Source of the DNA: Flavobacteriales bacterium
GTDB lineage: Bacteria > Bacteroidota > Bacteroidia > Flavobacteriales_D > Crocinitomicaceae
Assembly: GCA_947470515.1 (NCBI GenBank)
Contig: CANITF010000031.1
Location: 1-37,168 of the forward strand
DNA: 37,168 nt
Reading direction: 5' to 3'
The translations under genes were made by a program, and so were the position numbers. Every line of letters begins with the position of its first letter. The first letter of the stretch is position 1. Under the pieces are notes generated by a model. It made no database searches. It saw only the letters and a program-made list of their open reading frames with translations, and was not told where the DNA came from. This document shows positions 435 through 3,563 of the stretch, one piece after another.

Positions 435-872
435 ATGAGTAAGGTAGTTATTCCAATAGGCGCGGATCACGCAGGGTTTAGTTTAAAAGAAAAGGTTATA
501 CAACACTTAAAAAAAAGAGGTTTTGAAACAAAAGATTTCGGTTGCTTTTCTGAAGAAAGCATAGATTACCCAGATTTTGGACACCCTGTTGCCTCTATGG
601 TTGAAGAAAATGTTGGGATGAAAGGAATTTTAATTTGTGGTTCAGGAAACGGAATAAATATGACAGCAAATAAACATCAAGGAGTTAGAAGCGCTCTCTG
701 TTGGAAAAAAGAAATTGCTGAATTAGCGCGCTTACACAATGATGCAAATGTAATTGCGTTACCAGCCAGATTTATTACAGAAAAAGAAGCTATTGAGATG
801 ATCGATGTGTTTTTAACGACTGATTTTGAAGGAGGAAGACATCAAATGAGAGTAAATAAAATTGGGTGTTAA
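435..872 (+). CDS. rpiB: Ribose-5-phosphate isomerase B
   Basis: This enzyme interconverts ribose 5-phosphate and ribulose 5-phosphate in the non-oxidative pentose phosphate pathway, in the cytosol. The 145-residue length is normal for the RpiB/LacAB family. Visible landmarks are the N-terminal GADHAGF motif (residues 9-15), the DYPD segment (44-47), the catalytic cysteine region ICGSGNG with Cys68, the ANKHQGVR segment (78-85), and HNDAN with His101 that closes the substrate site. The ATG at 435 follows a good promoter at very short distance. Its stop codon overlaps the stop of the convergent TlpA-like gene by 4 nt. The family also includes sugar isomerases such as allose-6-phosphate isomerase, so substrate preference is inferred. 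Confidence 0.95.
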   Translation: MSKVVIPIGADHAGFSLKEKVIQHLKKRGFETKDFGCFSEESIDYPDFGHPVASMVEENVGMKGILICGSGNGINMTANKHQGVRSALCWKKEIAELARLHNDANVIALPARFITEKEAIEMIDVFLTTDFEGGRHQMRVNKIGC

Positions 873-2092
873 TTAGCCTTTAACATTGATTCTATTAATA
901 ACACCGTTTCTTTCATATAATTTAAATAGTGCTCCCCTGTTCCTGGCCCAGAAAACCCAGTGTGTATTTTTTTTATTTGTCCATCACGGCCAATAAAAAT
1001 TGCAGTAGGAAATGAAATTATATGGCTGAGCATTTTAAAATGTTCTGATGCTAAATCTTTGTTTGCACCACCACCAACTAAGAAAATAAAATCTAAATCG
1101 AGTCTTTTTTGAAGTGACGCAATTTTCGTTGAATACTCTTCAAACGAATCCCCTACTTCATAACCAATAGATATTATTTCCAAACCTTGATCACGGTATT
1201 TATTTTTTAATTCTTTGAAATAGCGTGTTTCATCCATACAGTTTGGACACCATGTTCCCATTATTTGAATAATGGTTATTTTTCCTTCTAAACGATCGTT
1301 TGGAAAGGTAAATTTATTTCCTTGAAGATCTTTTAATTCGAAATGGAATTTTGTTGTGTCTACCAAAAAAGTTAAGGAGTCTGGGTTTGTAAGCTGAAAA
1401 GTTTCATTTTTCCGTGCTTCCCAAGTTGTTTCCCAATGCTTCCCGCTAAAAAAGGATCCATAAATTGAGTCGTTTTGCATTTTTCCAGTAAATAAAAAAG
1501 CGTGTGAACCATCAAAACATGAAAGTAAAAGAGTGTTTCCTTTCACTTCACCACTTAAAAAACGATAATCACCTGTTTCCGTTAGAAAGGTTCCGTTTAT
1601 TGCGCTTTTATTTTGGTTAAAAAGGCCTGTAGCTTTATATGCGTCTACTGTGTTTGGTTCAAAGGTGGATTCCCATTTCCCACCAAAATTAACAGGATCA
1701 AGAGGTGATGAATGACTTGTTTTTGAAAAAGAAGTAAGATCACATGGAATTTTATAATTAACGCCTTTGTTAAGATTCTGCCAATATCCAGAGATGAGAG
1801 AATTGCTTTTTATATTTAAAAAAAGTGTGGAATTAAATAGAGGAAAGGATAATTTCAGAGAATCTTTCGTTATTTGATCTTGAATTAATGTGATTTTTTC
1901 TTCGCCATTGAAAATTGTGAAGACGAATGTTTTGTTTTTTTTTGCAATAACAAACTTGAAGGGTAGCCGAGAGTTTTCATTTAATTGCAAATTACCGGAC
2001 CAGTTACCTTTTTTAAGTCGTGGTAAGCAGTTTTGACCAGTGACATGGAGTGTTATTAGAAAGAAGAAACAACACCTTAAAAAATTAAACAT
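869..2092 (-). CDS. Secreted TlpA-like thioredoxin-fold protein
   Basis: A probable periplasmic or envelope thiol-disulfide protein of the TlpA/ResA/AhpC-TSA kind, 407 residues from the chosen start. I chose the ATG at 2092 because it opens a clear signal peptide (MFNFLRCCFFFLITLHVTGQ); the longer reading frame back to 2185 would bury it. Residues about 20-240 form a beta-rich N-terminal part with repeated GKW/GSFF-type strands, of no family I can name. The C-terminal about 140 residues are a redoxin domain with the active-site motif WCPNC, cysteines at 282 and 285, followed by the usual ELKNKYRDQGLEIISIGYE strand-helix region. It may reduce or oxidise exported proteins; the partner is unknown. 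It diverges from the sigma-factor gene and converges on rpiB. Confidence 0.8.
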   Translation of the reverse strand: MFNFLRCCFFFLITLHVTGQNCLPRLKKGNWSGNLQLNENSRLPFKFVIAKKNKTFVFTIFNGEEKITLIQDQITKDSLKLSFPLFNSTLFLNIKSNSLISGYWQNLNKGVNYKIPCDLTSFSKTSHSSPLDPVNFGGKWESTFEPNTVDAYKATGLFNQNKSAINGTFLTETGDYRFLSGEVKGNTLLLSCFDGSHAFLFTGKMQNDSIYGSFFSGKHWETTWEARKNETFQLTNPDSLTFLVDTTKFHFELKDLQGNKFTFPNDRLEGKITIIQIMGTWCPNCMDETRYFKELKNKYRDQGLEIISIGYEVGDSFEEYSTKIASLQKRLDLDFIFLVGGGANKDLASEHFKMLSHIISFPTAIFIGRDGQIKKIHTGFSGPGTGEHYLNYMKETVLLIESMLKAN

Positions 2093-2197
2093 GTATTTTT
2101 GCTTTTGGAATAGTAAAAATAATGCTTTTTTGTCGGTAACTTTATCTCTAATGCAACCTTTTTTAAAAAACACTAGTCTTTGCAAATAGACGCAGGT

Positions 2198-2734
2198 ATG
2201 GATGATACAACTTTAGTAATAGAATGTGTTAAAGGGAATGTTCGTGCACAGCAAAAGTTGTTTGATAAATTTGCTCGGAAAATGTTAGGCGTTTGTTTAA
2301 GGTATTCTAAAAACACTGAACAAGCCGAAGATGTTTTACAAGATGGATTTGTAAAAGTTTACAGCAAGTTAAAAGACTTCAAAATGGAAGGCTCTTTGGA
2401 AGGCTGGATAAGACGGATAATGGTGAATACGGCACTTGACCAGATTAGAAAAAACGGTAAATTGTTGGGAGACACAAACATTGATGATGTAGGATATAAA
2501 ATTGAAAACAATGCTTTTGTTTTTGAAGGATTGGTTGCTGAAGACTTAATGAAATTAGTTCAGTCAATGCCAACAGGATATAAAGTTGTATTTAATATGT
2601 TTGCAATTGAAGGATACACACATTTTGAAATAGCAAAAACGCTTGGAATTAGTGAGAACACATCAAAGTCTCAATATTCGAGAGCAAGGGCATATTTAAG
2701 AGAAAAACTAGAATTAATAGACGGTGGAAGGTAA
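2198..2734 (+). CDS. ECF-type RNA polymerase sigma factor
   Basis: An alternative sigma-70 family factor (ECF group) that directs RNA polymerase to a specific promoter set. It is 178 residues from the ATG at 2198. A TTG six codons earlier (2180) is possible, but it overlaps a TTTG that may belong to the promoter, so I prefer the ATG. Region 2 is visible as the segment around LRYSKNTEQAEDVLQDGF and the following GSLEGWIRRIMVNTALD (about residues 40-87). Region 4 is the helix-turn-helix around EGYTHFEIAKTLGISENT near the C terminus. Its last codons overlap the GTG start of the next gene by 11 nt, implying coupled translation with a likely membrane-bound regulator. Confidence 0.9.
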   Translation: MDDTTLVIECVKGNVRAQQKLFDKFARKMLGVCLRYSKNTEQAEDVLQDGFVKVYSKLKDFKMEGSLEGWIRRIMVNTALDQIRKNGKLLGDTNIDDVGYKIENNAFVFEGLVAEDLMKLVQSMPTGYKVVFNMFAIEGYTHFEIAKTLGISENTSKSQYSRARAYLREKLELIDGGR

Positions 2735-3563
2735 AGACAATATAAAGGATCTTTTTGGAGAAAAGTTAGGCTCGTTTGAGGCGAATGTTCGCCCGGAACT
2801 TTGGTCTAATATCTCATCTCAAATTGGGGGCGCCACCAGCGTAACAGGCACAACCTTGATAGCTAAAATAGTGATCGGAATTTCCGTTGCAGCCTCTATT
2901 ACAACTGTTGCGTATTTTGTTTTTACAGACAATGACCCCGTTGAAAAAACTCCAAGCAAAATAATTTCTATTCCTGATAACAATTCTAAAACAACACTTT
3001 CGGACACTAAAAAAGTAGTAGGTAAAAAAGAGAATTCTACTAATCAATATGTAGCCGACAATTTTGTAAGTAATTATTTACCAGAAGTTTTAAATACGAG
3101 TTTAGGCGAAGTTTATACTGAAGAAAATAGTGTGGTAGAACATATAATTCCGCCGACGATAATCAACAAGGATAACAAAGAAGCTGTTATTAATAAAAAT
3201 ATTGAACAAGTTGCGCAGATTAATAAAAACGAAAGTGAACATGTTTCACCAGAAATAGTTGAGGCCTCAGAAAAGGTTGAGTCCCTAGGTGTTTTGCCAA
3301 ATGTTTTTACACCGAATGGAGACAGAATTAATGATGTTTTTTCTGTTGAATCGAAAGGCCTTTCTGATTTTAGTATCGTTGTTATTGATAAAAACAGTAA
3401 GATAATTTATCAATCAATAGACGTTAATTTTGTTTGGGATGGCACAGGTTTAAATGGTGAGATTGTTACAAAAGGAACGTACATTTATTATATCACTGCG
3501 CGCAATTTGAAGGGTGAATTGATAAGCAAACACAGCATGTTAAACATTGAAACAGATCGTTAA
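2724..3563 (+). CDS. Membrane-anchored putative anti-sigma partner with T9SS type B domain
   Basis: A 279-residue protein translated from a GTG at 2724 inside the sigma-factor gene; a TAG codon in frame at 2718 excludes a longer form. Residues 1-44 are a short cytosolic segment (LFGEKLGSFEANVRPELW), of a kind often found next to ECF sigma genes in this phylum. Residues 45-67 are one transmembrane helix, about 68-188 a low-complexity acidic and Asn/Glu-rich linker, and about 189-279 a gliding-motility-associated/CHU_C type domain (VLPNVFTPNGDRINDVF, then VWDGTGLNG and GTYIYYI). That domain is normally the C-terminal secretion signal of T9SS type B cargo. With no cleavable signal peptide the protein is probably held in the inner membrane with this domain in the periplasm. 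An anti-sigma role is inferred only from gene order. Confidence 0.75.
   Translation: MEGKDNIKDLFGEKLGSFEANVRPELWSNISSQIGGATSVTGTTLIAKIVIGISVAASITTVAYFVFTDNDPVEKTPSKIISIPDNNSKTTLSDTKKVVGKKENSTNQYVADNFVSNYLPEVLNTSLGEVYTEENSVVEHIIPPTIINKDNKEAVINKNIEQVAQINKNESEHVSPEIVEASEKVESLGVLPNVFTPNGDRINDVFSVESKGLSDFSIVVIDKNSKIIYQSIDVNFVWDGTGLNGEIVTKGTYIYYITARNLKGELISKHSMLNIETDR

Follow-up and report, generated by a model that had tools for sequence, protein, structure and literature searches.

Anti-sigma factors that span the cell envelope have been described in Bacteroidota as the Dma/Reo kind, and the published accounts, as far as they cover Dma architecture, assign to these proteins a tip, a helix, a disordered tether, a barrel, and an ECF21 partner (PMC13088901, PMC13114119). 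A separate body of work deals with the type B cargo of the T9SS, the C-terminal domains of which are reported, in the parts of these papers devoted to binding, to associate with PorP/SprF-like barrels (PMC9143113, PMC12618676). The section of PMC12618676 on the SprB type B domain describes five conserved motifs, each needed for secretion, and the paper concludes that production of the shuttle should keep pace with that of type B cargo. The open-licence literature that we searched yielded no sensor linking cargo gene expression to export capacity.

The gene pair analyzed here belongs to a Crocinitomicaceae genome (GCA_947470515.1) and lies within a 37,168-nt stretch of contig CANITF010000031.1, which is denoted the window. 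The upstream gene (2198-2734, plus strand) encodes an ECF sigma factor, assigned to this class by Pfam and NCBIfam matches only (Pfam Sigma70_r2, 58.2 bits, and Sigma70_r4_2, 50 bits; NCBIfam sigma70-ECF). With the stop side at 2734, this frame has two candidate starts, TTG at 2180 and ATG at 2198, of which the latter is favored because the inferred -10 element of the promoter discussed below ends at 2180. The downstream gene (2724-3563, plus strand) encodes a 279-residue putative trans-envelope anti-sigma factor with a T9SS type B-like end; its GTG start at 2724 falls within the sigma gene, and the two genes overlap by 11 bp. The frames agree with the original prediction, made by a model from the sequence alone, both on the extent of the pair (2198-3563) and on the GTG start inside the sigma gene. 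The divergent gene facing the sigma gene (869-2185, minus strand, likely start near 2092) encodes a redoxin/TlpA-like protein with a CxxC motif, and a similar gene was seen by eye at the same place in several relatives' loci.

The partner protein had been predicted to consist of a cytosolic tip, a membrane helix, a linker, and a CHU_C-type domain, an architecture on which the Pfam and NCBIfam searches, the hydropathy profile, and an AlphaFold2 model (21 alignment rows, mean pLDDT 63) converge. The tip (residues 1-45; 2724-2858, plus strand), a putative sigma-binding part delineated from the alignment, is modeled with moderate confidence (pLDDT about 50-67) as two helices, at residues 6-16 and 24-35. 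It is followed by a transmembrane helix (residues 46-67; 2859-2924, plus strand) that coincides with a clear hydropathy maximum (2.16, from residue 49) and is present in the model at a pLDDT of only about 45. The next segment, up to about residue 190, is a disordered periplasmic tether (residues 68-189; 2925-3290, plus strand), modeled at low confidence (pLDDT mostly below 50-65) and without secondary structure. The C-terminal part (residues 190-279; 3291-3560, plus strand) is a beta-rich CHU_C/T9SS type B-like domain (pLDDT 83-96) that lacks the RWG signature of cargo. Both families that define the domain of T9SS type B cargo match it above their cut-offs, namely, CHU_C (PF13585; residues 191-261, 49.4 bits, cut-off 27) and TIGR04131 (39.5 bits, cut-off 35). 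A Foldseek search with the model returned streptococcal proteases and CopC as the top matches and, further down, the T9SS protein PorZ (5m11, rank 10) and chain D of 8gl8, the SprA-PorV-PPI-RemZ-SkpA-SprE extended T9SS translocon (rank 11), with TM-scores that are low by query length, as is to be expected of a largely disordered chain. Our guess is that chain D of 8gl8 is the substrate-like RemZ.

Judged by eye from the sequence and the model, the partner carries no cleavable N-terminal signal peptide, with 45 residues preceding the helix; the claim that a membrane anchor stands in place of such a peptide thus holds. Its Pfam hits up to an E-value of 1 include no FecR domain. We regard the protein as a variant of the Dma/Reo trans-envelope kind in which a T9SS domain replaces the barrel, and not as Dma itself, because CHU_C stands in the place of the barrel. 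The likeness lies in the layout, the gene order, and the barrel-ended relatives considered below, with Dma and Reo known here by description. The original prediction had missed that the layout is that of the described Dma/Reo class with another outer-membrane end.

The pair is conserved well beyond this genome. Within a set of 60 genomes, made up of that of the window, 25 from its genus, and 34 more distant ones, at least 21 of the 25 same-genus genomes and one genome from another genus of the family (G034) gave matches into the N-terminal part of the partner, and the four same-genus genomes without such a match among those listed are 64 to 85% complete. Five loci (L032, L033, L034, L035, and L037) were matched over CHU_C only and yet present the whole layout. 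Counting that of the window, 26 ECF-partner pairs are readable in the loci fetched from these genomes, and the sigma factors of the 25 relatives are 53-96% identical to the window's. In a 27-row alignment of the partner, the tip is conserved and the linker is not; Trp27 of the tip and Lys48 of the helix are invariant in all 27 rows.

For a wider survey, a profile was built from the first 80 residues of the partner, that is, the tip and the helix (profile A2), and it matched proteins in 109 of the 296 genomes of the class. We examined 110 of the resulting loci, of about 130, the 20 left out all having E-values above 1e-4. For the 83 proteins with a measurable linker, its median length is about 162 residues. 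An ECF gene adjoins the profile member in every one of the 110 loci, directly upstream in 108 by rule and in the other two (L134 and L151) by eye, with overlapping frames; among the 108, the sigma and partner frames overlap in 58. Within the window's own genome, only 1 of 46 CHU_C matches adjoins any of the 17 sigma region-4 matches. The coupling of the two genes that had been read from this single locus is supported, and the 26 pairs together with the class-wide survey indicate that it is not due to chance. The notion that the sigma gene has, by mere chance, a membrane-anchored CHU_C protein of the ordinary sort as its neighbor, one without any action on the sigma factor, appears very improbable: it would leave the adjacency in all 110 loci, the frequent frame overlap, and the conservation of the tip over the linker unaccounted for.

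Other small CHU_C proteins of the same genome were considered as further cases of this layout and dropped; the few inspected by eye had a signal peptide, a truncated frame, or no such tip next to a sigma gene. In genus g42, the putative anti-sigma factor carries at least two consecutive N-terminal copies of the tip motif (L075, L081, L089, L098, L100, L103, L116, L122, and L124), as if more than one sigma molecule could be held.

The tip is shared by proteins with different outer-membrane ends. By a local profile, a CHU_C end is present in 91 loci, besides the window's copy and one cut locus, and Pfam CHU_C recovers 90 of these 91 at E-values up to 0.01, some below the curated cut-off. Of the 17 members without CHU_C, 10 match OMP_b-brl_2, an outer-membrane beta-barrel family. 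Conservation of the tip Trp reaches 90% or more in the CHU_C-ended group and in the remaining group alike; barrel and CHU_C have been exchanged on a common tip. A scan with the sigma alignment, in which 80 of at least 590 matches were kept, placed the CHU_C kind in Fluviicola, Crocinitomix, and several Crocinitomicaceae; the cultured strains Crocinitomix catalasitica ATCC 23190 and Fluviicola chungangensis MAH-3 are among the relatives with the pair. In Pedobacter and Mucilaginibacter, the scan revealed a third kind, which lacks CHU_C and measures about 250 residues.

The sharing of the tip with barrel-ended members bears on the main rival to a T9SS-related reading, namely, that the protein is a general envelope-stress sensor in the manner of Dma/Reo, the C-terminal domain being an Ig-like anchor or ligand binder and the genes controlled being surface-remodeling targets. 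Reo has been proposed to sense outer-membrane stress, in the part of PMC13114119 concerned with its signal, and PKD modules match about 40 of the 91 CHU-type members, in keeping with such a role. We nevertheless consider this explanation unlikely, if a serious one, in view of the composition of the regulon described below. The distribution of the secretion system itself offers little contrast for the co-occurrence of the pair with T9SS because SprA is nearly universal in the class (matches in 288 of 296 genomes); of the eight genomes without a SprA match, one (G115) encodes a CHU-type member (L127).

The original prediction proposed that the terminal domain is presented as a tethered, substrate-like domain. 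The family assignment, to CHU_C and TIGR04131, stands; the likeness to cargo fails at the Trp of the RWG signature. Of 30 cargo domains from the own genome, 29 have this Trp (the other has Y), versus none of the 119 putative anti-sigma domains, with the caveat that these 30 scored highest among the 46 CHU_C matches and may favor the consensus. Without alignment, an R/Q-[WYF]-G string occurs in 7 of 119 anti-sigma tails versus 30 of 30 cargo domains. The core motifs FTPNxD, WDG, and GxY are largely kept in both groups. This comparison omits one cut member (L066), one copy of another locus (L045, a copy of L009), and the 17 members without CHU_C, as well as the cargo of the inferred regulon, which was chosen by the motif under test and would have made the comparison circular. 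Given the absence of the cargo Trp, the anti-sigma domain probably mimics the cargo tag in a diverged form and is probably not exported as ordinary cargo. Such a domain may keep part of a binding face; without the RWG Trp, it may also bind neither the translocon nor the shuttle at all. The loss of this residue is likewise compatible with the envelope-stress explanation.

A tree of 90 C-terminal domains (30 from cargo and 60 of the 119 from anti-sigma factors; 95 columns) is poorly resolved. The cargo and anti-sigma labels nevertheless cluster, with four changes, at least three of which are forced by starred branches, and repeated gain of the CHU_C domain by anti-sigma factors is possible.

The flagellar anti-sigma factor FlgM provides a precedent for sigma release coupled to export. 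By analogy, the T9SS could really export the terminal domain, and pulling or cleavage would then free the sigma factor. In cargo, CHU_C is the T9SS signal; the tether seems long enough to span the periplasm; and the genes apparently controlled encode cargo. Against this stands the RWG Trp, kept in none of the 119 domains, as well as the requirement for each of the five SprB motifs in secretion, with the qualification that the section of PMC12618676 on these motifs gives no letters and RWG may or may not be among them. On balance, export-coupled release seems improbable. Literature searches on FlgM and CHU_C brought up nothing evidently related.

A candidate autoregulatory promoter, TGCAAC-N18-GTCTT (-35/-10), lies upstream of the sigma gene at 2152-2180 on the plus strand and is the only match in the window, with 0.01 expected. 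Among close relatives, TGCAAC-N17-19-GTC is found upstream of the sigma gene in all 24 judgeable loci, the window's included (four of the 28 rows were too short to be judged), versus 0 of 24 for a scrambled control. Across the class, this GTC form precedes the sigma gene in 13 of 92 CHU-type loci and in none of the 17 other members. The commonest dyad there is GCAAC-N17-CATC (found at 49 of the 92 CHU-type loci and at 3 of the 17 others; the shuffle controls for this dyad work covered hexamers only), which aligns with the same promoter and has a different -10 element. A literature search for TGCAAC together with "type IX secretion" found no paper.

The strongest new result is the link of this promoter to T9SS cargo genes. 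In the own genome, TGCAAC-N18-GTCTW has 10 matches versus 5 for the reversed control; six lie inside frames and four immediately ahead of a correctly oriented gene. These four precede the sigma operon and three units, each leading to a secreted CHU_C protein (610, 812, and 742 residues; the 812-residue protein is encoded by the second gene of its unit). Allowing one mismatch gave no excess in this genome (11 versus 17 for the reversed control).

In the 60 genomes, the strict motif has 70 matches versus 17 for the reversed control. Thirty-one of the 70 belong to the sigma operon, 28 of them read in the sequence and three assigned by position only (G029, G038, and G045); the position rule scores one true sigma site (L284) as inside a frame owing to an overlong frame. 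Of the 39 matches elsewhere, 25 precede a CHU_C gene, either directly or with a gene for a short secreted protein in between; one of these (L296) has the ATG of a CHU_C cargo frame (91 bits) 22 nt after the motif. The remaining sites comprise seven cut by contig ends (L299, L308, L309, L317, L320, L325, and L338) and seven that are neither: two inside frames (L312 and L326), two more than 120 nt from any suitable gene (L332 and L333), one before a 160-residue product (L334), one before a 101-residue, secreted-looking product (L298), and one (L300) before a protein that combines a choice-of-anchor-L domain with a T9SS domain of type A (25.3 bits against a cut-off of 23) and so looks like T9SS cargo too. 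All 17 reversed matches fall inside frames of at least 150 residues, and none precedes a CHU_C gene in either direction. The count of 25 cargo sites is inflated because related genomes share orthologous cargo operons and the sites are not independent; 24 of the 25 proteins, when clustered, form four similarity groups of 15, 7, 1, and 1. No T9SS machinery gene was recognized beside the motif sites inspected.

The match between motif sites and CHU_C proteins is not what general envelope stress would predict, and the link of the pair to T9SS, for which the original prediction lacked this evidence, gains support from it. The motif is presumably read by the sigma factor of the pair, and these data strongly suggest that its regulon includes T9SS type B cargo genes together with its own operon. 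One motif-bearing operon recurs (L314, L315, L316, L322, L323, L327, and L336), with a short secreted protein of about 120 residues, for which the one representative scanned had no Pfam match, and a CHU_C protein that is about 800-1000 residues long. The gene after this operon looks by eye like one for glyceraldehyde-phosphate dehydrogenase. At three other loci of the own genome (L039, L042, and L043), CHU_C genes have a gene that is PorP/SprF-like by eye directly downstream, unlike the motif-bearing cargo units.

Outside the family, TGCAACC-N16-CATCTA has 105 matches in 68 of 296 genomes versus 29 for the reversed control (table counted by hand). Forty regions with 41 motif instances, chosen by hand and thus not a fair sample, included three sigma operons, six type B cargo units, six type A cargo genes confirmed by TIGR04183 (L397, L400, L404, L419, L420, and L425), two type A look-alikes (L423 and L424), four cut frames, nine other genes, and 11 instances that sit inside a frame or more than 200 nt from any gene. 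Genes that bear no mark of T9SS thus also follow the related motif, which speaks against the favored reading; in these lineages, either the regulon seems to be wider or the motif to be less discriminating. In one of them (L418-L424; G117, G150, and G179), the motif stands before the ECF operon and before type A T9SS cargo genes, and the partner has about 410 residues; the single one scanned hit nothing in NCBIfam.

Combining these observations, we favor, with somewhat more belief than doubt, the view that the pair comprises an ECF sigma factor and a Dma/Reo-type anti-sigma factor with a T9SS type B-like end, which together would provide feedback that adjusts cargo synthesis to the capacity for export or anchoring. 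The tip would hold the sigma factor in the cytosol, and the tether would carry the terminal domain to the outer membrane, where it would contact the path of type B cargo. The likeliest points of contact are a PorP/SprF-like shuttle and the SprA translocon. A change in the state of this path would cause the tip to free the sigma factor, which would then transcribe its own operon and T9SS cargo genes. As to the sign, we guess that a free partner in the path holds the domain and the sigma factor is released, and that cargo backing up displaces the domain. Sensing of the T9SS state by an anti-sigma factor is plausible on these grounds, and a feedback sensor of the type B path is the best reading because a diverged type B domain is part of the brake on a sigma factor that apparently activates type B cargo genes. 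More tentatively, and short of what we would call probable, the diverged cargo tag could compete with cargo for the shared PorP/SprF-like shuttle or SprA and thereby set type B cargo transcription by free capacity in several Bacteroidota lineages.

With this feedback reading, the matching of cargo to export becomes testable by single deletions, given a pair that has a relative of the cargo tag on its brake and a promoter recurring at cargo genes; the promoter motif can also be used to predict T9SS cargo regulons, and the Dma/Reo kind gains a second sort of outer-membrane end. Like the pair described here, Dma/Reo systems of Bacteroidota combine, in the published descriptions of their architecture, an N-terminal sigma-binding part (putative in our pair), one helix, a long disordered tether, a C-terminal outer-membrane module, and an ECF neighbor (PMC13088901, PMC13114119). 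They differ in the end, a beta-barrel instead of a T9SS type B-like domain, and in the targets, which in the portions of these reports dealing with regulation are vesicle, PUL, or NigD genes and here appear to be T9SS cargo genes. With T9SS type B cargo, such as SprB and PG1035, the partner shares the C-terminal domain family; it departs from cargo in its membrane-anchored N terminus, in lacking RWG and, by eye, a cleavable signal peptide, and in its neighbor, a sigma gene upstream instead of porP/sprF downstream.

Two described systems likewise tie an ECF sigma factor to T9SS. In the PorXY-SigP system of Porphyromonas gingivalis, as far as PMC7712824 lays out the pathway, a T9SS-domain protein, PorA, also acts upstream; there, a separate cargo-type protein signals via a two-component system, and SigP acts on genes for T9SS components, whereas in our pair the T9SS domain lies within the putative anti-sigma factor itself and the apparent targets are cargo genes. 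The ECF/anti-sigma pair THC0290_1774/1773 of Flavobacterium psychrophilum is grouped with T9SS genes under motif SM6, which, according to the part of PMC9723704 on this motif, has a CGT box and covers T9SS machinery genes, unlike the motif described here.
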